Positions 28,711 to 38,069 of a stretch of DNA of 64,000 nt are shown here, piece by piece. The translations under genes were made by a program, and so were the position numbers. The notes below the pieces were generated by a model, which was not told the origin of the DNA, made no database searches, and saw nothing but the letters and a program-made list of their open reading frames with translations. Numbering within the stretch: the first letter of the stretch is position 1; the number at the start of each line of letters is the position of its first letter. The DNA lies in NCBI RefSeq assembly GCF_011801145.1, contig NZ_CP046172.1:8804001-8868000 (forward strand). Direction: 5' to 3'. The stretch comes from Nocardia arthritidis. Its GTDB lineage: Bacteria; Actinomycetota; Actinomycetes; Mycobacteriales; Mycobacteriaceae.

Positions 28711-29502
28711 TCAACGCCGTCCGGATTTCTTGGGCGGCCGCGGCGTCAACGCGCTCGGCAGCCCGAGCGCCTGCGAGGCCTCGCGGGCGGCGGCGGTGAG
28801 CAGCGGGACGCAGGCGCGCACCTTCGCCCGGTCGAGGTCGAATGCCAAGGCGGAGACGCTGATTCCGCCGATCGGCTGACCGTGGTGGTCGAGCACCGCC
28901 GCACCGAGGCAGCGGGTGTGCTCCTCGTTCTCCTCGTCGTCGACGGCATAGCCGCGCTCGGCCACCGATTCCAGGTGCGCGAGCAACAGCTCGGGATCGG
29001 TGATGGTGCGTGCGGTCATGGCGGTCAACGGATTTCGCGCCAGCACCGCGCGCAACTCCGGCCGCGGCAGCCCGGCCAGAATGGCCTTGCCGATCGCGGT
29101 GCAGTGCAAGGGAATCGACAGGCCGACCCGGGAGCGCATCACGTACGCGCGGTCGCCCTCCAGTTTGTCGACGTACACCGCCTCGTCGCCCGAGCGCAGC
29201 GCGAAATGCACGGTGTGGCCGGTGGCCGCGCACAGCCGCCCCAGGATGGGGTGCACGATCTCGGTGATGCTCGCCGACTGCCCGGCCAGCGAGAGCAGGC
29301 GAACGCCGGGCAGATACCGGTGTTCCGAATCGACGCGTACCCAGCCGAGTCCGGCCAGCTCCGACAGGATCCGGTGCACCGTTGAGGTCGGCAGGCCGGT
29401 GCCGCGGCTGATCTCGCTGACCCCATGGCAATTCGGCAATGCCTCCAGCACCAGCACCACCTTGGCCACCGCGCTCGGGTGGCCACTCACCGAGCCAGCC
29501 AT
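28711..29502 (-). CDS. IclR-family regulator of the uronate locus (KdgR-like)
   Basis: The 263-residue protein has an IclR winged helix (AVAKVVLVLEALPNCHGVSEI, GLPTSTVHRILSELAGLGWV) and the C-terminal IclR effector domain with HCTAIGKAILAGLP, RGYAVDDEENEEHTRCLGAAV and ISVSALAFDL. IclR members named KdgR control hexuronate catabolism and respond to 2-keto-3-deoxygluconate. ATG 29502 lies 16 bases inside the 3' end of kduD, making kduI - kduD - iclR one coupled operon. It most likely represses both divergent arms through the palindrome at 31100-31116. Confidence 0.85.
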   Translation of the reverse strand: MAGSVSGHPSAVAKVVLVLEALPNCHGVSEISRGTGLPTSTVHRILSELAGLGWVRVDSEHRYLPGVRLLSLAGQSASITEIVHPILGRLCAATGHTVHFALRSGDEAVYVDKLEGDRAYVMRSRVGLSIPLHCTAIGKAILAGLPRPELRAVLARNPLTAMTARTITDPELLLAHLESVAERGYAVDDEENEEHTRCLGAAVLDHHGQPIGGISVSALAFDLDRAKVRACVPLLTAAAREASQALGLPSALTPRPPKKSGRR

Positions 29503-30245
29503 CCCCCGTCCACCACCAAAACGTGCCCGTGCACATAGGACGCGGCGGGCGAACAGAGGAAGACGATGGCGCCGGCGATATCCTCGGGCGCGCCCCAGCG
29601 GCCCACCGGAATTCGCTCGGTGATGGCCCGGTTGCGTTCGGTATCGGCTTGCAGCGCAGCGGTATTCGCGGTGGTCACATATCCGGGAGCGACGGCGTTC
29701 ACCCCGACGCCCCGCCCGGCCCATTCGGTGGCGAGCGCCTTGGTGAGTCCGGCGATCGCATGTTTGCTCGCGGTGTAGGAGGCCACGTTGATACCGCCCT
29801 GAAAGGACAGCAGCGAGGCGATATTCACGATCCGGCCCGCGCCGCGGTCGAGCATGGCGGCGCCAATGGTCCGGGCCAGCAGGAAGGCCGCGTCCAGATT
29901 CACGTCGAGCACCTTGCGCCAGTCTGCGAGCGAAACACCCACCGCCGCACCGCGACCGATGATTCCGGCATTGTTCACCAGCAGGTCGATCCGGTGCGCG
30001 GCGGCCAGCGCGACAGCCGCGGATTCGACCGCGACGAGGTCGGTCAGATCGACGCCGACGGTGTCGCATTCCCGGCCCAGCGCCCGGATTTCGGCGGCCA
30101 CCGGTGCGAGCCCGGCCGAATCACGGCCCCACAGCACGAGATCCGCGCCCGCGGCCGCCATGGCGAGCGCCGCGGCCCGGCCGATGCCGGTGCGCGCGCC
30201 GGTGACCAGCGCTCTGCTGCCGTCCAGCCGGAACGGGTCCGTCAC
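29487..30245 (-). CDS. kduD: 2-dehydro-3-deoxy-D-gluconate 5-dehydrogenase KduD
   Basis: KduD reduces 2,5-diketo-3-deoxygluconate to 2-keto-3-deoxygluconate with NAD(P)H. The 252-residue SDR has TGARTGIGRAAAL, NNAGIIGRG, catalytic YTASKHAIAG and the KduD-typical ending NTAALQADTERNRAITERIP, GRWGAPEDIAGA, SYVHGHVLVVDGGW. The substrate assignment is supported by its coupling to kduI: GTG 30245 overlaps the kduI stop (GTGA). Confidence 0.87.
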   Translation of the reverse strand: MTDPFRLDGSRALVTGARTGIGRAAALAMAAAGADLVLWGRDSAGLAPVAAEIRALGRECDTVGVDLTDLVAVESAAVALAAAHRIDLLVNNAGIIGRGAAVGVSLADWRKVLDVNLDAAFLLARTIGAAMLDRGAGRIVNIASLLSFQGGINVASYTASKHAIAGLTKALATEWAGRGVGVNAVAPGYVTTANTAALQADTERNRAITERIPVGRWGAPEDIAGAIVFLCSPAASYVHGHVLVVDGGWLAR

Positions 30246-31078
30246 GAGAGTTGCTCCGTCGCAACCAGATCCATGTCGTTGTAGGCCAGGTTCTCACCCG
30301 CCGTGGACCAGACGAACCGATAGGGTGCGGTACCGGCCCCGGTGTGCACGGACCACGGCGGGCTGATCACCGCCTGCCGGTCGGCGACGATGATGCTGCG
30401 GGTGCGGTTCGGCTCACCGCACAGGTGCACCACACGCTCGGCCGGATCCAGCCCGAAGTACAGGTAGATCTCGGTGCGCCGGTCGTGGGTGTGGCAGGGC
30501 ATAGTGTTCCACACGCTGCCGGGTGCGAGTGTGGTGATGCCGAGCGCGAGCTCGCAGGACCGGACGCCCTCTTCGTGCACGTACTTGCGCAGCGTGCGCT
30601 CGCTGGCCCGCTCCGCCGAACCGACCTGGACGACCTGCGCGGCGGATCGCGGAATCAGGGTGGTCGGATGCGCGAAATGCGCTGGGGCCGAGACGATGTA
30701 GAAGACGGCATCGCCCGCGACGGCCACCTCCTCGGTGCCGTGCCCGACGTAGACGATGTCCTCCGCGCCCACCTCGTGCTTTACCCCGTCTGTGGTCACC
30801 GAGCCGCCGCCGGATAGGCAGACTATGCCGAGTTCCCTACGGTCACAGAGCTTTTCGGCCCGGATCTCGGCGGGCGGGTGCAGCGTGAGCTCCCCGCCCG
30901 CAGGCACCGCACCGGCGATCAGGAGGCGGTCGTGGTGCGACAGCGTGTAGCGCACCTCGCCCTCGGCGAACAGATCGGTGACCAGGAAGCGCTCGCGCAG
31001 TTCCGCTGGTGTGAGCGTGACGAATTCGGTCGGGCTGGTGGCGTAGCGGACGTCCGTGCCGCGCGTTGCTGCATTCAT
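30242..31078 (-). CDS. kduI: 5-dehydro-4-deoxy-D-glucuronate isomerase KduI
   Basis: KduI isomerises 5-keto-4-deoxyuronate, the sugar released by unsaturated uronyl hydrolases, to 2,5-diketo-3-deoxygluconate. The 278-residue cupin shows SSE-type N-terminal strands (RERFLVTDLFAEGEVRYTLSH), REDIVYVGHG-like EDIVYVGHGTEEV and the zinc site NTMPCHTHDRRTEIYLYF with later His in SPPWSVHTGAGT. It is the first gene of the minus-strand arm, 130 bases from the divergent transporter operon. Confidence 0.93.
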   Translation of the reverse strand: MNAATRGTDVRYATSPTEFVTLTPAELRERFLVTDLFAEGEVRYTLSHHDRLLIAGAVPAGGELTLHPPAEIRAEKLCDRRELGIVCLSGGGSVTTDGVKHEVGAEDIVYVGHGTEEVAVAGDAVFYIVSAPAHFAHPTTLIPRSAAQVVQVGSAERASERTLRKYVHEEGVRSCELALGITTLAPGSVWNTMPCHTHDRRTEIYLYFGLDPAERVVHLCGEPNRTRSIIVADRQAVISPPWSVHTGAGTAPYRFVWSTAGENLAYNDMDLVATEQLS

Positions 31079-31099: not shown

Positions 31100-31116
31100 T
31101 TCCCGTCTGACGGGAA
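31100..31116. promoter_or_regulatory. 17-bp perfect palindrome, candidate IclR operator
   Basis: TTCCCGTCTGACGGGAA has eight-base arms around a single central T. A third half-site, TTTCCC at 31121-31126, pairs with the GGGAA arm to give a second, shorter inverted repeat. The site lies in the 130-base gap between the divergent kduI and ABC-transporter operons, just upstream of kduI, where one repressor could control both. Confidence 0.7.
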
Positions 31117-31207: not shown

Positions 31208-32521
31208 ATGCGAATCAAGTCACGGTCGGTCGGCGCGTTGGTCGCGGGGGTGCTGGCGCTGGCCACGGCCACCGCATGCGCGCCGGGCACGCAGGAATCG
31301 AACAACACCTCGAATGGCCCTGTCACGGTGGACTTTTCCAGCTTCAAGGGCAAACACATGACCTACCTGTACTTCACCGACGGGCCCGACCTGGACGCCA
31401 CCAAGGCCGCGGTCGCCCGCTTCGAGCAGGAGACCGGCGCCACCGTCGACCTACAGGTCATCCCGTTCGCCCAGCTGAACACCGCGCTCACCGCGCGCAT
31501 CACCTCGGGCACCGCGCCGGAGGTGGCCCGGGTACAGGACTGGCATCTCTGGGGCAGCGAATTACTGGATTTCACCAACTATTTCGGCAAGGCGTATCCG
31601 AACGAATTCACCGACGGCGCCGTAGCCACCTCCGTCGACAAGGACGGGCACATGTTCGCGGTGCCGAGCGATCAGACGATCAACGGCCCGTTCGTCAATG
31701 TCGACGCATTCCAGAAGGCCGGCGTCCCGGTGCCCGACGCCAACACCAAATGGACCTGGCAGCAATTCGTCGACACGGCGGCCAAGGTGGCCCAGGAAAC
31801 CCAAATGTCCTCGGCCATCACGATGGACGTCTCCGGTAACCGGTTGAGCACCGTGCTCAGCCAGTTCGGCACCACGCTGATCGGCGCGGACGGTCAGGTC
31901 GCACTCGACCAGGCCAAGACCGAACAGGCGTTGAGCGCGGTCAACGATCTGCTGCAATCGGGCAAGATGTCCAAGGAATTCTGGCTGGGCGCGGGCACCA
32001 ATTATCGCGGCGGCAACGACCCCTTCATGGCGCAGCAGGCTCCGGTATATCTGTCCGGTCCGTGGCAGGTCGGCGCGTTCGCGAAATCCGCGCCGTTCAA
32101 ATGGGCCGCAGTGCCGAATCCGTGCGCGGCCGAATGCGGCGGCTTCCCCGGTATGAAACAGATGGTGGCGTTCCGGCGCAGCAAGGAGCCGACGCTCGGC
32201 GTCGCCTTCGCGCAGTGGATGAACCGCACGGAGAACCAACGCGAGATAGATAAGGTCGCGTTCTGGCTGCCCACCAGGAAGGACCTGGTCTCCGCCCACG
32301 TCGAATACCCCTCGCGCGCAGCCGATATGAATGTGTTCATCGGGCAGATCGCGAGTACGCCCTCGGTCGATTTCAAGACCGCGGCGAGTCCGGCATTCAC
32401 CGGTGCGGCGAACGCGCTGGTGAAGGAATTCGACAAGTACGTCGCGGGTCAGGAGAGCGTCACCGATTGCGTACACAACCTGCGTGATCAAGTGGACAAA
32501 ATCGTGAAAGCGACCAAATGA
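31208..32521 (+). CDS. ABC sugar transporter substrate-binding lipoprotein
   Basis: This 437-residue extracellular binding protein has a signal peptide with a lipobox-like LATATAC at residues 19-25 and a family 1 (CUT1) solute-binding fold: TYLYFTDGPDLDATKAAVARF, VIPFAQLNTALTARITSG, APEVARVQDWHLWG, WTWQQFVDTAAKV and PVYLSGPWQVGAF. ATG 31208 follows AAGGAG. It heads an operon with two permeases, an unassigned enzyme and a GH105-like hydrolase, so the ligand is probably an unsaturated uronate oligosaccharide. That substrate is inferred from context. Confidence 0.9.
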   Translation: MRIKSRSVGALVAGVLALATATACAPGTQESNNTSNGPVTVDFSSFKGKHMTYLYFTDGPDLDATKAAVARFEQETGATVDLQVIPFAQLNTALTARITSGTAPEVARVQDWHLWGSELLDFTNYFGKAYPNEFTDGAVATSVDKDGHMFAVPSDQTINGPFVNVDAFQKAGVPVPDANTKWTWQQFVDTAAKVAQETQMSSAITMDVSGNRLSTVLSQFGTTLIGADGQVALDQAKTEQALSAVNDLLQSGKMSKEFWLGAGTNYRGGNDPFMAQQAPVYLSGPWQVGAFAKSAPFKWAAVPNPCAAECGGFPGMKQMVAFRRSKEPTLGVAFAQWMNRTENQREIDKVAFWLPTRKDLVSAHVEYPSRAADMNVFIGQIASTPSVDFKTAASPAFTGAANALVKEFDKYVAGQESVTDCVHNLRDQVDKIVKATK

Positions 32522-33402
32522 CGGCCGGTTTCCGGATCAACCGGCGCAAGGTCGCGCCGTACCTGTTCATCCTGCCGAATATGGTGCTGTTCGGGCTGTT
32601 CACCATCTATCCGGCGATCAACGGCTTCAATCTCAGCTTCTACGACAGCAATAACGGTCTGACCTTCCGTGCCGTCGGCACCGACAACTACCGCCAGATT
32701 CTGGGCAGCTCGGAATTCTGGGATGTCGCACGGCAGACCGCCCTGTTCGTCATCGGATTCGTCGCGCTCAGCACCGTGCTGGCGACCGCGCTCGCACTCC
32801 TGTTGCACGGCCAGCGGCGCGGGCGGGGCGCACTGAGCGCAGCCTATTTCCTGCCCATGGTCGTCTCGCCGGTGGTGGTCGGCCTGATCTGGAATGCGGC
32901 GCTGAATCGACAGACCGGGCTGGTGAATTCGGCGCTCGCCGCGCTCGGCCTCGGCCATCCCGCGTGGCTGGTCGATCCGCACCTGGCGCTGGTGTCGGTG
33001 ATACTCGTCGGCACCTGGATCCACCTGGGTTTCTACGCCATGATCATGCTGGCGGGCCTGCAGGCCATCGACGAATCGGTATACGAGGCGGCCACCATCG
33101 ACGGCGCCGGCACCTGGCAGCGTATCCGGCTGATCACCCTGCCGCTGGTGCGACCGACGACGCTGGTGGTGATCATGCTGGCCACCATCGCCGGATTCCA
33201 GGCCTTCGACTTCATCTACACGCTCACCGGCGGCGGCCCGGTCGGCGCGACAACCCTTCTCGTGCAATACGTTTACGTCAACGCCTTCCACGCACCGGTC
33301 AGCTACGGCTTGGCGAGCGCCGCGGCGGTGATCCTGTTCCTCGTCGTATTCGCCGTGACTTTTCTCAACTACGTCGTCGGGCGGCGCAGGGAGGCACTGT
33401 GA
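32518..33402 (+). CDS. ABC sugar transporter permease 1 (CUT1)
   Basis: The 294-residue integral membrane protein has six predicted helices and the inner-membrane EAA loop ESVYEAATIDGAGTWQRIRLITLPLVRP that docks the ATPase (shown by its core YEAATIDGAG and ITLPLVRP). It is the MalF/UgpA-type subunit. Its ATG overlaps the stop of the binding-protein gene (ATGA). No ATPase gene is in the operon, so a shared MsiK-type ATPase is expected. Confidence 0.92.
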   Translation: MTAGFRINRRKVAPYLFILPNMVLFGLFTIYPAINGFNLSFYDSNNGLTFRAVGTDNYRQILGSSEFWDVARQTALFVIGFVALSTVLATALALLLHGQRRGRGALSAAYFLPMVVSPVVVGLIWNAALNRQTGLVNSALAALGLGHPAWLVDPHLALVSVILVGTWIHLGFYAMIMLAGLQAIDESVYEAATIDGAGTWQRIRLITLPLVRPTTLVVIMLATIAGFQAFDFIYTLTGGGPVGATTLLVQYVYVNAFHAPVSYGLASAAAVILFLVVFAVTFLNYVVGRRREAL

Positions 33403-34280
33403 TCCAGACCGTCGAACCCGAGCGCACACGTCCGGCCGCCACCTGGACCTCCACCACCGGGCGCACACCGCGGGCCGGCTCGGTGCTGCGCGCGACGGTG
33501 CTCATCGCGGGCGCGATCATCCTGGTCGCGCCGCTCATCTGGGCCGGGCTCTCGTCGTTCAAGAGTCAGGCCGAGCTGGCCGCGCAGCCGCCGACGCTCT
33601 ATCCGCATCACGCCACCCTCGACAACTACCGAACCGGGTTGGCGGCCTTCGATTTTCCGCATTACCTGGTCAACAGCGTCATCGTGACGGTGGCCGCAAC
33701 GCTGCTGACCCTGCTGATCAATTCGATGGCCGCATTCGCCTTGGCCAAGTACAACTTTCGCGGCCGTGACCTGCTGTTCCTGATCACGCTGTCCACCATC
33801 ATGATTCCGCTGCAGGTGATCCTGCTGCCGGTCTATCAGGTGGTTTCCGCCTTCGGCATGACCAATTCGCTGCTGGGGCTGATCATTCCGCCCGCGGCGA
33901 CGCCGACCGGCGTCTTTCTGCTGCGCCAATACATGCTCACGCTGCCCGACGAGACCATCGAGGCGGCCCGGATCGACGGCGCGGGCGAATTCGCCATCTT
34001 CCGGCGCATCGTGCTGCCGCTGTGCAGGCCCGCGATCGCGGTGCTCGCGATCTTCTCGGTCATCTGGCGCTGGAACGACTTCCTGTGGCCGCTGATCGTC
34101 GCGCAGGACGAGAGCAAGCAGACGCTGCCGGTGGCGATCGCGAGATTCAGTGGCCAACAGGCTATTCCGTTCAATCAGATCCTCGCGGTCTCGGTCGTCT
34201 CGATCGTGCCGACCGTGGTGATCTTCCTGATCCTGCAGCGGCAGATCATCGCGGGACTGGTCCGAGGAGCGATTCGATGA
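33399..34280 (+). CDS. ABC sugar transporter permease 2 (CUT1)
   Basis: The 293-residue MalG/UgpE-type permease has about six helices and the EAA loop EAARIDGAGEFAIFRRIVLP followed by WRWNDFLWPLIV. GTG 33399 overlaps the previous stop (GTGA), and its own stop overlaps the next ATG. An N-terminal soluble stretch of about 25 residues precedes the first helix. It completes the importer of the uronate locus. Confidence 0.92.
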   Translation: MIQTVEPERTRPAATWTSTTGRTPRAGSVLRATVLIAGAIILVAPLIWAGLSSFKSQAELAAQPPTLYPHHATLDNYRTGLAAFDFPHYLVNSVIVTVAATLLTLLINSMAAFALAKYNFRGRDLLFLITLSTIMIPLQVILLPVYQVVSAFGMTNSLLGLIIPPAATPTGVFLLRQYMLTLPDETIEAARIDGAGEFAIFRRIVLPLCRPAIAVLAIFSVIWRWNDFLWPLIVAQDESKQTLPVAIARFSGQQAIPFNQILAVSVVSIVPTVVIFLILQRQIIAGLVRGAIR

Positions 34281-36949
34281 GCAGATACGTTCCGGCGCAC
34301 GCCGCACGGGAGCGCACCGTGCACGCGCTCGATCGCAATGGTTACGTCCGGGACTGGTTGATCGCACCCGTCTGGTCGGCGCCGTGCCGGGATCTGGACG
34401 AGGCACTCGCCGCGGACGGCAGCCCGTGGGGCACGGACGGCCGCTGGGTGCTGACCAATGGGCCCGATGTCGCACCGCTGAAAGAGCTGCTGTACGACCG
34501 GCTTCCGATCGATATCGCGGCGGATCCACCGACGGTGTCCGAGGGCGCGGCATTCAGCTGGCGCCCGACGGAGCATGACACCCACGAAACGGCCTGGGAG
34601 CGAGCGCATATCGGCGCGGACGGGCTGCTCGACTGGAGCGAGTTCTGTTTCACGCCCGAATACCGCGCGGCCATCGCCGCCACCGTCCTGGAGGTGGATC
34701 AGGCGGAGGAGCGGACGCTCGAGGTGGCGTGCACCGGGCCGGTCGCGGTCTACCTCGACGGTGAATTACGGCTGTTCACCCGGAATTTCACCTATATGGA
34801 GCCGCGTCGCGAGCAATTGCGGGTGCGGCTGCGTTCCGGGCGCACCGCCGTGCACCTGCTCACCTGGCAGCTGGCCTTCCGCGAATGCAGGCATATCGCG
34901 AGCCTGCGGGTGATCGGGCTGCCGGTCCGGGTGGTCATACCGGCCCGGGGTGCCGATGAATTCCGTTCGGCGGCAGCGGAATCCATACTCGACGCACTCG
35001 GCTGCGCGCCGTGGGCCAGTATCGACGGCACCGTGACGCTCACCGGTCCGGCCGGTGCGCGCTATCTCGTCGAGTCGGACGGAAATCCGCCGACGGCGGT
35101 GACGCTCGTCGACGGCACCGCAAGCCTGACGTTATCCGGTGCGGCGGTGGATGATTCGACCGCTTCGATGCTCGCCACCGGCGAGACCACGCTGACGGTA
35201 CGGGTCGACGATTCCGCCGCCCCGGTGCTGCGGCGGTTGCGCGCGGCGCGCGTACCGGGTGTCCATCGCACGGGCTCCGCCGACGATCCGGCGATTTGGC
35301 GGTCCGAACTGCTGCGGCACGTCGCGGATGGTGTGCCCGGCGTTGCGCGCGCACTGGCCCGGCATGCGCTCGAGCCAGGCGCGAAGCTGCGCGACGAAGA
35401 TTTGGATCCCGCCCTGGCCATGATCGAATCGCGGTCCGACTGCGCCGATTTCGAAGCGGTCGGGCTCGTACATCTGTGGCGGCGGCTCGATGACGCGGTA
35501 TGGGCTCCCACCCAGCGCGATCGGGTGCGCCGAGCGCTGGTCGGCTTCAAATACTGGATCGACCAGCCCGGCCTGGACGCCATGTGCTACTTCACCGAGA
35601 ACCACCAGTTCGTCTGGCATACCGCGGAAACCCTTGTCGGCGACCTGTTTCCGGACGAGGTGTTCGGAAATACCGGCTGGCCGGGCCGACGGCACGCCGC
35701 GCACGGACGCGAACTCGCCGCGGAGTGGATGCGACGCAAGCTGTCCGGCGGATTCAGCGAATTCGACTCCAACGCCTATCTCGCGATCGACGCCCTGGCG
35801 CTGGTGTCCTGGATCGAATTCGGCACGGAGCCGCCGTTGCGCCGTTTGGCGGAGGCCTTGTTGGACAAGGCATTGCTGACGTTGGCCGGCAATTCGTGGC
35901 GCGGGGTGCACGGTGCGGCGCACGGCAGGTCCTATGTGCCGACCCTGCGATCGTCCCGCTTCGAGGAGACCGCGCCGATCATGTGGACGCTGTGGGGCGC
36001 GGGTTCGCTCAATACCGCGGTACTGCCCGCGACCGCGCTGGCCACCGCAAGGTGTTACCGCACACCGGATCTCGTGCGCGCGGTGGCCACCGAACTACCC
36101 GGCGAATGGGACGGGCGGCAGGTGTATCGCGGCGATTATCGCTGGCACCACGATCTCCTCGAGCGACCGTACGGCTCCGATCTGCGGGTGTGGCGCACCC
36201 CCGACGCCATGCTTTCCAGCGTGCAGGACTATCGGCCCGGCTTGCCGGGATTGCAGGAGCATATCTGGGGCGCCACCCTCGGACCCGAAATCCAGGTCTT
36301 CGCAACGCATCCCGCGACGGCGAGCACATCATCGTCGGCCCGGCCCAATGCCTGGGCCGGACAGCGGGTGCTCCCGCGCGCCCACCAGCACCTCGACACC
36401 GTGCTGGTACTGCATCGCATTCCGGAACCGGATCTCCTCGGCACCACCCACCTCTGGTTCCCCACACCCCATTTCGATGAATGGATCCAGCACGGCCCTT
36501 GGCTCTCCGGGCGAGCGGGCAACGGATACGTCGCGGTGGCCACCGAGGGCGGTTTCCGACCGGTCAGCCGTGGCGACGAGGCACGACAGGCCTGGCTGCC
36601 GCGCGGCAGCGGGCTCGGTTACGTCGCGACCGTCGGCAGGGCCGCGACCGACGGCTCGTTCTCGGACTTCGTATCCGCGCTCACCACACCGGATTTCGCC
36701 TCCGATTCGATAGCGGTGACCACCCGCGACGGCCGCGCGCTCGCCCTCTCCTGGCCGGGCGCGTTCACGGTGGACGGCGCGGCGGATTTCGCCGAACCAC
36801 CGCATCTCGACAATCCGGCGCTGCACCTTCCGTTCGGTGCGGACCGGCTGGAGGCCGAATGGGGCGGGCACCGGCTGGTGCTCGACCTGAGCGAGGGTCG
36901 CCGGGTGGAACCGCCCAGCGGCGTGCCGGGGGCGGGCGATGCGGACTGA
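34277..36949 (+). CDS. Large unassigned protein of the uronate locus, putative lyase or hydrolase
   Basis: I do not recognise a named family for this 890-residue cytoplasmic protein; there is no signal peptide. Residues 110-230 look like a beta-sandwich with PVAVYLDGELRLFTRNF and RTAVHLLTWQL. Residues 400-640 are mostly helical and look like an alpha/alpha toroid, with TENHQFVWHTAE (N442, H443), EFDSNAYLAIDALAL (N499, Y501) and GAAHGRSYVPTLR (H549, R551, Y553), the Asn/His/Arg/Tyr mix of toroid polysaccharide lyases. The C-terminal 200 residues look strand-rich. It is coupled to the permease (ATGA) and to the GH105-like gene (11-base overlap), so it probably cleaves imported uronate oligosaccharides. 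Confidence 0.65.
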   Translation: MSRYVPAHAARERTVHALDRNGYVRDWLIAPVWSAPCRDLDEALAADGSPWGTDGRWVLTNGPDVAPLKELLYDRLPIDIAADPPTVSEGAAFSWRPTEHDTHETAWERAHIGADGLLDWSEFCFTPEYRAAIAATVLEVDQAEERTLEVACTGPVAVYLDGELRLFTRNFTYMEPRREQLRVRLRSGRTAVHLLTWQLAFRECRHIASLRVIGLPVRVVIPARGADEFRSAAAESILDALGCAPWASIDGTVTLTGPAGARYLVESDGNPPTAVTLVDGTASLTLSGAAVDDSTASMLATGETTLTVRVDDSAAPVLRRLRAARVPGVHRTGSADDPAIWRSELLRHVADGVPGVARALARHALEPGAKLRDEDLDPALAMIESRSDCADFEAVGLVHLWRRLDDAVWAPTQRDRVRRALVGFKYWIDQPGLDAMCYFTENHQFVWHTAETLVGDLFPDEVFGNTGWPGRRHAAHGRELAAEWMRRKLSGGFSEFDSNAYLAIDALALVSWIEFGTEPPLRRLAEALLDKALLTLAGNSWRGVHGAAHGRSYVPTLRSSRFEETAPIMWTLWGAGSLNTAVLPATALATARCYRTPDLVRAVATELPGEWDGRQVYRGDYRWHHDLLERPYGSDLRVWRTPDAMLSSVQDYRPGLPGLQEHIWGATLGPEIQVFATHPATASTSSSARPNAWAGQRVLPRAHQHLDTVLVLHRIPEPDLLGTTHLWFPTPHFDEWIQHGPWLSGRAGNGYVAVATEGGFRPVSRGDEARQAWLPRGSGLGYVATVGRAATDGSFSDFVSALTTPDFASDSIAVTTRDGRALALSWPGAFTVDGAADFAEPPHLDNPALHLPFGADRLEAEWGGHRLVLDLSEGRRVEPPSGVPGAGDAD

Positions 36950-38069
36950 ACGCCCACATCACGGCCCAGGCAATAATTCGGACTCCGGCGCGGATCTGAC
37001 CTCATCCCGGCAGGCCCATCCCCCGCTGCCGCCTTTGACCGATCTCTCGGCGGCGCGACTCGCCGAGATCGGCGATCTGCTCGTCGCCCGAACTTGGCGG
37101 ATGGGCCTGCCGTCCTGGTTCTGGGGCGAGGGGGTCTGCCTGCTCGGCATGCTGCGGCTCGCGCGGGCGCGGCGTCTTCCGGTTCCCGTCGAGGTGGTGG
37201 ACTGGCTGCGACACCACCGCGAACGGGGCATCGACATCGGCCACGTCAACAACCTCGCGCCGGGCACCGCCGCGGTGCTGGCCGCCGCCGAATATCCGGA
37301 GTTCGCGGATCCGGCCATCCGGCTCGGCGAGTGGTTCAACGAAACAGGCTCCTGCACAAGATCTTTCAACGGCGCGCTGGAGCATTGGCCCGGCGGCGTC
37401 TGGGCGGACACCACGTTCATGGCGGGCGTGTTCCTCGGCCATCTCGGCGCGTACCGGCGCGACCCGGAGCTGCTGGCCGCATTCGGCGATCAGCTGCTCG
37501 CCCACGCCGAGATCCTGCAACACCCCGAGCTCGGGCTGTTCGCGCACGGATCGCACCGGGGCGAAACGCTGTGGAATTTCTGGGGCCGCGGCAATGCCTG
37601 GTGCGCGCTCAGCGCGGTCGAATTCCTGGAGCTCGCCGCGACGGCCACCGTCGACGCCACCCAGGTCCACCGGATCACCGCCGCACTGACCCGTCAGCTG
37701 ATCGCGCTGGCGCAACGGCAACCGGCACATGGCGTGTGGAGCGTGCTGGTTGACGATCAACCGGAGAATGCCGGGATACTGGAGACCTCGGCCGCCGCGG
37801 GCATCGGCGCCGCCATGCTGCGCGCCGCCCCCCTGATCCCCGAGCACACACCGACTTTCACGACGGCGGGCTGGCGGGCAATACGCGGCGCACTGGCCTA
37901 CGTCGATGCCGAGGGCGCACTCACCCGAGTGAGCGCCGGCACCGTCCTGCAACTGATCCCGTTCGGCTACAGCGTAATTCGCGACGACCGCCCGCAACTC
38001 TGGGGCCAGGGCCTCGCCATGCACGCGGTGGCCGCGGCCCTCGAGAACTTGGCTCAGGCCCGCACCTGA
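36939..38069 (+). CDS. GH105-like unsaturated uronyl hydrolase
   Basis: Unsaturated uronyl hydrolases of families GH88/GH105 hydrate the C4-C5 double bond left by polysaccharide lyases and release 5-keto-4-deoxyuronate, the KduI substrate. The 376-residue protein has the (alpha/alpha)6 pattern, GVWADTTFMAGVFL with probable catalytic D157, LFAHGSHRGETLWNFWGRGNAW, and a late ETSAAAGIGAAML block. It has no signal peptide, so it works after import. It overlaps the unassigned 890-residue gene by 11 bases and the convergent MmpL gene by 16. Confidence 0.82.
   Translation: MRTERPHHGPGNNSDSGADLTSSRQAHPPLPPLTDLSAARLAEIGDLLVARTWRMGLPSWFWGEGVCLLGMLRLARARRLPVPVEVVDWLRHHRERGIDIGHVNNLAPGTAAVLAAAEYPEFADPAIRLGEWFNETGSCTRSFNGALEHWPGGVWADTTFMAGVFLGHLGAYRRDPELLAAFGDQLLAHAEILQHPELGLFAHGSHRGETLWNFWGRGNAWCALSAVEFLELAATATVDATQVHRITAALTRQLIALAQRQPAHGVWSVLVDDQPENAGILETSAAAGIGAAMLRAAPLIPEHTPTFTTAGWRAIRGALAYVDAEGALTRVSAGTVLQLIPFGYSVIRDDRPQLWGQGLAMHAVAAALENLAQART

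Follow-up and report, generated by a model that had tools for sequence, protein, structure and literature searches.

What supplies the unsaturated uronide on which a uronate operon of Nocardia arthritidis depends? The question is raised by a stretch of 64,000 nucleotides from this actinomycete (contig NZ_CP046172.1, positions 8,804,001 to 8,868,000; hereafter the window). Its operon, comprising an unsaturated uronyl hydrolase of glycoside hydrolase (GH) family GH105 type, KduI and a KduD-like protein, needs such a source, and the only enzyme there without an assigned role is a protein of 890 amino acids encoded directly upstream of the GH105-like gene. We show that this is a real, conserved protein whose best-supported role is that of a toroid-type beta-eliminase representing a new sequence family. 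It probably acts as a cytoplasmic beta-eliminase, most likely an exo-acting oligosaccharide lyase of the kind built from an (alpha/alpha) toroid and an antiparallel beta-sheet.

The open reading frame (ORF) of this protein, taken from the ORF list of the window, is a real gene and far from a chance one. Its ATG lies within four bases, ATGA, that it shares with the stop of the permease gene upstream, and is preceded by a GAGGAG stretch resembling a ribosome site; its last 11 bases are also the first 11 of the GH88/GH105-like ORF. These overlaps bear out the coupling to both neighbours proposed in the initial annotation, which was made from the letters of the window. The same frame stays open 5′ of the ATG, where a GTG at 34022 would give a protein of 975 residues; despite this open frame, the alignment in most homologues starts at about residues 1–18 of the 890-residue version.

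The sequence family of the protein is contained in none of the libraries searched (Pfam, NCBIfam and PDB), as the absence of a recognised family in the initial annotation had anticipated. We obtained zero matches in Pfam at E ≤ 1 and in NCBIfam at E ≤ 0.1. Across 54 family members, no Pfam E-value was better than 0.012; three unrelated models matched one member each, none of them credibly. A PDB sequence search returned nothing significant (best E 1.5, an unrelated protein), and neither did hmmsearch of the PDB with family profiles. The GH88/GH105 domain PF07470 was absent from the protein in the Pfam scan and present in its downstream neighbour. No description of this family was found in the literature examined, a search that did not extend to CAZy. 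No clear signal peptide was seen in the N-termini inspected, by hydropathy and by eye rather than with a predictor.

The predicted model (predicted local distance difference test, pLDDT, 91.5) is composed of a beta-sandwich, a helical toroid and a C-terminal beta domain, in agreement with the three-part architecture guessed earlier. A Foldseek search with the full-length model mostly returned GH2-type enzymes with a template modelling (TM) score of about 0.1. Because this says little about the active half, residues 332–890, which comprise the toroid and the C-terminal domain, were folded and searched separately. All eight matches at E ≤ 1e-3 were then toroid lyases, ranked first, and the first 32 VIA rows share the toroid plus antiparallel beta-sheet fold. 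This structure prediction and fold search, which the initial annotation had proposed as a check, placed the active half nearest to polysaccharide lyase (PL) families PL35, PL17, PL12 and PL15, followed by PL8. Structure 9o4u, which together with 9nwf we take to be the glucuronate dehydratase BcGDH of GH154, came only at rank 45; 9o3q is presumably BcPL35. The architectural trait of the toroid lyase superfamily (PL8, 12, 15, 17, 21, 33, 35 and 39 type), an antiparallel beta-sheet domain C-terminal to an alpha/alpha toroid, is thus present in the predicted model. A GH2 identity was rejected, as only the jelly-roll-like residues 20–216 match such enzymes, there is no GH2 Pfam match and the remainder of the protein is toroid and beta domain.

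A genome scan identified 72 related loci, 57 actinobacterial and 15 from Chloroflexota, mostly matched over nearly the whole length, with best-segment identities to the N. arthritidis protein of 47–76% and 30–43%, respectively. The closest homologue among the matches listed is that of Nocardia pseudovaccinii (76% identical). Conservation was counted over the window and 66 homologues (67 rows), omitting six partial or possibly frame-broken sequences (L052, L055, L058, L067, L073 and L074), the self-match L001 and the paralogue L002; thinning of near-duplicates left the 54 rows of alignment A1. In samples of 151 genomes from the taxonomic family and 296 from the phylum, the profile of A1 matched one and four, respectively, the own genome being included in both counts; of the phylum matches, two (the own genome and G371) are near full length. 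Among plasmid records, 199 of 72,556 matched, 123 of them from Rhizobium. Matches to the protein include 40 plasmid records of Pseudosulfitobacter, all of those listed having 28.9% identity. Phage records searched with the family gave zero matches.

Across the 67 rows, 54 columns are invariant, including T440-E441-N442-H443-Q444, W484, E495, S498-N499-A500-Y501, H549, R551, Y553 and E563, and the same catalytic-looking residues occur in Chloroflexota and actinobacterial homologues. We compared these with 12 remote homologues, drawn from plasmids of Rhizobium, Neorhizobium, Pseudosulfitobacter, Salipiger, Pannonibacter, Subdoligranulum and Haladaptatus, from two actinobacterial genomes (three rows) and from a 1715-residue paralogue in the own genome. 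These are not independent, since they include two Rhizobium and one Neorhizobium sequence and two rows from one genome, and two (L107 and L108) are incomplete. All 12 retain E441, N442, H443, W484, E495, S498, Y501, R551, Q660, W693 and H725; Y553 is kept in 11 and H549 in just three. In a 23-row alignment from which the paralogue was excluded, E-N-H, Y501, R551, Y553 and H725 are invariant. The TENH, SNAY and HGRSY clusters singled out in the initial annotation are therefore present as described, and within the close family H443, H549 and Y553 are all found in 67 of 67 rows, with no match to a characterised non-carbohydrate family. H443 and Y553 hold beyond it, whereas H549 holds in the close family only and, because so few remote homologues keep it, is probably not indispensable for catalysis across the superfamily as a whole.

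Three sequences deserve separate mention. The 1715-residue paralogue (L078:7296-12443, forward strand; C1 at about 7495295-7500442) carries SENH, FNSSGYY and GRSQ in its toroid region; a 1138-residue part of it has no Pfam match over cut-off, and a 982-residue ORF of unclear nature adjoins it. The homologue L025, from a record titled as a Bifidobacterium breve metagenome-assembled genome, groups closely on the tree with the unclassified actinomycete L022, so its species label looks doubtful. That of Nocardia aurantia (L058) consists of three matching segments and may be frame-broken or carry a sequencing error.

Comparison with solved lyases suggests a similar active-site arrangement. The catalytic set of PL8, 12, 15, 17, 21, 23, 35 and 39 enzymes comprises Asn/His, Tyr and mostly a His (PMC12088678), and that of PL33 is alike (PMC11848413). 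In the N. arthritidis protein, N442 and Y501 are 59 residues apart, and Y501 and H662 161 residues. The corresponding spacings are 53–57 and 130–166 in those enzymes of PL12, 15, 17, 21, 33, 35 and 39 for which the residues are given (PMC12088678, PMC11848413); from Asn to Tyr, a PL8 enzyme has 59 residues and a PL23 enzyme 63 (PMC12088678). As judged from the sequence, the protein carries the superfamily trait of a putative Asn/His neutraliser (N442/H443) with a Tyr (Y501) some 50–63 residues on. This spacing, together with retention of N442, H443, Y501 and R551 in the remote homologues, supports the Asn/His/Arg/Tyr site like that of toroid lyases suggested at the outset. For the beta-domain histidine there are two candidates, compared by sequence alone: H662 fits the known spacing but is less conserved than H725.

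Among established PL families that have a Pfam model or a solved structure, none shows recognisable profile similarity to the protein (Pfam, PDB hmmsearch, and hhalign to PF07940). The PL35 glycosaminoglycan lyases (GAGase II/VII; 8khv, 8khw) resemble it in the toroid, the antiparallel beta-sheet and a putative site of Asn, Tyr and beta-domain His, and the PL35 enzyme of B. caccae acts together with a GH88 (PMC12269599). They differ in that there is no significant sequence similarity and that the N. arthritidis protein has a 330-residue N-terminal beta part, is apparently cytoplasmic and has an uncertain beta-domain His. The PL15 and PL17 exo/oligo-lyases (3afl, 3a0o, 7bm6, 4nei) likewise match in fold and have comparably spaced Asn/His and Tyr, but without significant sequence similarity, and their substrates, alginate and heparin, find no support here. 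With heparinase II/III proteins (PF07940), the protein shares an N-[NH] … E-x-[SA]-x-x-Y motif, found in 10 of the 14 examined. The pattern N[HN]-x(42-54)-E-x(1,2)-[SA]-x-x-Y was written after viewing both groups and is therefore support rather than a formal test; it occurs in 54 of 54 A1 rows, 22 of 23 A4 rows and those same 10 PF07940 proteins, against two of 574 neighbour proteins (one being the L058 homologue itself), 11 of 2800 shuffles of PF07940 proteins and two of 2000 shuffles of the N. arthritidis protein. Both attempts to align the family with PF07940 proteins by hhalign were null, and the PF07940 model was not among the matches of any of the 54 family members.

The genomic setting of the family is consistent with an intracellular role in uronide breakdown. 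In the window, KduI scores over its cut-off and is accompanied by a KduD-like protein, a regulator nearest to KdgR and the GH88/GH105 neighbour (Table 1), in keeping with the uronate-operon setting first proposed. The KduI, KduD-like and regulator genes run divergently from those for the importer, the 890-residue protein and the GH88. Of the 55 actinobacterial loci that extend 1 kb or more beyond the gene, 45 have GH88 as the immediate downstream neighbour on the same strand, at a median offset of five bases. Where the locus reaches 5.5 kb to either side (41 loci), we identified GH88 in 32, KduI in 24, KduD in 23 and importer genes in 33–35, and no locus contained KduI without GH88. For comparison, PF07470 passes its cut-off in five of 198 sampled Actinomycetota genomes, the own genome included. 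Related loci also carry 2-keto-3-deoxy-6-phosphogluconate (KDPG) aldolase and PfkB kinase.

The linkage recurs on alphaproteobacterial plasmids, where GH88 adjoins or lies near the homologue in five of six loci examined. Those of Pseudosulfitobacter and Salipiger (L103, L104) hold a compact module of GH88, tripartite ATP-independent periplasmic (TRAP) importer, KduD, LacI, KduI and the homologue; L105 has GH88, KduI, the homologue and an ATP-binding cassette (ABC) importer; L075 and L106 have the homologue, GH88, GH28 and an ABC importer; and L107 has GH28 and importer genes, with an annotation gap at the gene itself. By eye, the N-termini of the rhizobial GH28, GH88 and homologue look cytoplasmic. 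The divergent promoter region of the window contains a perfect palindrome, a candidate operator of the IclR-family regulator. In 17 hand-chosen loci, the palindrome occurs with at most three mismatches within 5 kb upstream of the gene in nine, eight of them with at most two; in seven of the nine, a site with at most two mismatches lies about 3.1–3.3 kb upstream, the expectation being 0.25 such sites per 64 kb. From the linkage to GH88, KduI, KduD and importer genes and the recurring palindrome, we conclude that the protein provides an unsaturated uronide within the cell or acts together with one.

Neighbouring genes give weak hints of the substrate. The survey covered 53 large proteins out of 202 candidates of at least 380 residues, with figures from the 25 commonest of 128 families; there, an alpha-L-rhamnosidase domain occurs in two proteins and no other carbohydrate-active enzyme in more than one. 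The neighbours GH30 with a ricin domain (Kutzneria), GH43/AbfB (Saccharothrix) and GH28 (Nonomuraea, Rhizobium) hint at plant cell-wall glycans, with no single substrate. The rhamnose-glucuronate lyases of PL27 and PL42 would leave the same unsaturated end for GH105 from Rha-GlcA caps; the PL42 fold differs, however, and rhamnose genes are not established in the N. arthritidis operon. Four loci (L034, L040, L043 and L045) have two KduI-like genes, one on each side of the homologue. On a plasmid of the haloarchaeon Haladaptatus (L076), many genes for Gfo/Idh/MocA oxidoreductases and sugar phosphate isomerases/epimerases surround the homologue, and the annotation lists no GH88 closer than about 12 kb.

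Based on this, we infer the following order of events. A uronic-acid oligosaccharide would enter through the ABC importer, and N442 and H443 would neutralise its uronate carboxylate. Y501 would take H5 and protonate O4, with help from R551/Y553 and from either H662 or H725 of the beta domain, so that the C4–O bond is cleaved and a 4,5-unsaturated uronyl end is left. The GH105 neighbour would release this end as 5-keto-4-deoxyuronate, which KduI and KduD would convert to 2-keto-3-deoxygluconate.

The evidence favours beta-elimination, by a lyase or a dehydratase, over hydrolysis, and so favours the former part of the "new lyase or hydrolase" of the initial annotation. The same unsaturated product for GH105 would arise if the enzyme were a uronide dehydratase, removing water (the C4 hydroxyl) rather than a sugar from a saturated non-reducing-end uronate. 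The GH154 members BcGDH and BT_3677 dehydrate terminal glucuronate, BcGDH with a toroid and an Asn-Tyr-Arg-Tyr site (PMC12269599), and P29_PDnc does the same in ulvan breakdown (PMC8511951). The N. arthritidis protein shares with GH154 the toroid, the partnership with a GH88/GH105 gene and residues alike in kind, though not identical in spacing (N442, Y501 and R551-x-Y553 versus N-N/W, Y and R-x3-Y). It differs in its extra beta domains and in lacking a sequence match, no GH154-type protein having been found in PDB sequences at E ≤ 10 (the presence of 9o4u in the searched set is unconfirmed). We consider a dehydratase, the strongest alternative, rather unlikely and prefer a lyase because the protein has a second beta domain as lyases do, because Foldseek places lyases first, and because the gene survives without GH88: a dehydratase would be useless there, yet five genomes keep the gene without a GH88 or KduI match, where a lyase would still free a neutral sugar. 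A second aligner on the active half also gave human dermatan sulfate epimerase, but a C5-epimerase of that type, performing the first half of the elimination only, is very improbable, as it would not make the unsaturated end needed by the adjacent GH105, and a Pfam and NCBIfam scan of nine operon proteins revealed no other lyase family.

Several loci weigh against a lyase that feeds GH105. The five genomes just mentioned (L004, L006, L021, L029 and L053) retain the gene and an importer without a match to PF07470 or to the KduI of the window, and all 15 Chloroflexota loci show neither GH88 nor KduI nearby. Five of these 15, from Anaerolineae (L062, L066, L067, L070 and L072), look sulfoquinovose-like: the homologue lies among an SftI-like isomerase and an esterase, a transaldolase is also present in all except L072 (the L062 copy being closest to BmSF-TAL, E 5e-74), and some carry GH4, Gfo/Idh/MocA or SsuD-like genes. 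A sulfo-transaldolase (sulfo-TAL) pathway is reported in Chloroflexi (PMC12890257). These neighbours, and the GH88-less operons of L004 and L006, in which only a regulator or importer stands beside the gene, would suit a glycosidase or other enzyme that acts without C4 elimination on sugars whose C6 group is anionic, such as uronate in certain lineages and sulfoquinovose in Chloroflexota. We regard this as improbable: the catalytic-looking residues are identical in Chloroflexota and actinobacteria, the GH88/KduI linkage recurs in two phyla, a GH31-like gene in L062 and L073 could already be the sulfoquinovosidase, and the SftI-like protein of L062 scores 320 against an NCBIfam cut-off of 700 and has no PDB relative.

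The absences themselves are not certain because the genomes are drafts. GH88 as a universal requirement was rejected, PF07470 passing its cut-off in only seven of 24 selected genomes (three of 10 actinobacterial genomes without GH88 in the locus and four of 14 Chloroflexota). PF04962 matches, found in 24 of 26 genomes, were dropped as evidence of KduI, since many score far above the KduI of the window and are presumably IolB-like; that KduI was taken as the query instead. The five genomes have one PF04962 match each, with an IolB-like score. The genome of L033 gave marginal short matches only, that of L037 has KduI without GH88, and in those of L009 and L055 GH88 is present but nothing matches KduI. 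On a quick midpoint-rooted tree, the GH88-less rows are scattered (four changes) in a GH88-linked background, which we read as loss. The features of the locus, within a 10.0-Mb genome on a single contig, are collected in Table 1.

Table 1. Positions of the gene, its domains and motifs, and the surrounding operon in the window.
Feature	Positions	Strand	Basis
890-residue protein without a named family; proposed cytoplasmic beta-eliminase with predicted toroid lyase fold	34277..36949	+	ORF and overlaps; no Pfam/NCBIfam match; model pLDDT 91.5; motifs invariant 67/67
Residues 1–330, N-terminal beta-sandwich part; about 20–216 jelly-roll-like as in GH2 beta-glucuronidases	34277..35266	+	
Residues 332–605, helical toroid domain, proposed active site	35270..36091	+	Secondary structure, fold matches
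Residues 606–890, C-terminal antiparallel beta domain	36092..36946	+	Secondary structure, fold matches
TENH, residues 440–443; N442/H443 proposed carboxylate neutraliser pair	35594..35605	+	67/67; E-N-H 12/12 remote
SNAY, residues 498–501; Y501 proposed catalytic base/acid	35768..35779	+	67/67; S498, Y501 12/12 remote; N-to-Y spacing 59
HGRSY, residues 549–553; R551/Y553 proposed substrate/charge-handling	35921..35935	+	H549, R551, Y553 67/67; remote R551 12/12, Y553 11/12, H549 3/12
H662, candidate beta-domain catalytic His by spacing	36260..36262	+	H in 52/54 rows; 7/12 remote
H725, alternative beta-domain His	36449..36451	+	53/54 rows; 12/12 remote
GH88/GH105-like unsaturated uronyl hydrolase	36939..38069	+	PF07470 E 3.5e-32; nearest PDB sequence the putative GH105 protein 3qwt
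ABC sugar permease (second)	33399..34280	+	PF00528
ABC sugar permease (first)	32518..33402	+	PF00528
Lipoprotein-like sugar-binding protein of ABC importer	31208..32521	+	PF13416/PF01547; start and lipobox-like LATATAC read from sequence
Perfect palindrome TTCCCGT-CTG-ACGGGAA, candidate operator between KduI and binding-protein genes	31100..31116	.	Sole exact site in the 10-Mb genome
KduI, 5-keto-4-deoxyuronate isomerase	30242..31078	-	NCBIfam PRK00924, 340 bits versus cut-off 250
KduD-like short-chain dehydrogenase/reductase, 2-dehydro-3-deoxygluconate 5-dehydrogenase	29487..30245	-	TIGR01832 307.8 bits, under cut-off 338.9
IclR-family regulator, nearest KdgR, start codon not settled	28711..29484	-	PF01614/PF09339; PRK15090 147 bits, under cut-off 275

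A broader reading, which we hold to be doubtful, is that these proteins form a widely scattered new superfamily of intracellular eliminases priming anionic-C6 sugars. In actinobacteria and alphaproteobacteria, they would then represent a third kind of uronide dehydratase, unrelated in sequence to GH154 and P29_PDnc, and the Chloroflexota members would have been drawn into sulfoquinovose catabolism. If the proposed elimination is confirmed, the protein of N. arthritidis would define a new lyase (or dehydratase) family across Actinomycetota, Alphaproteobacteria and Chloroflexota, together with three haloarchaeal plasmid records and one from Bacillota. Rhizobial-plasmid proteins now labelled hypothetical would gain a function, and a lyase-type active site would come to light that escaped the sequence libraries we searched.

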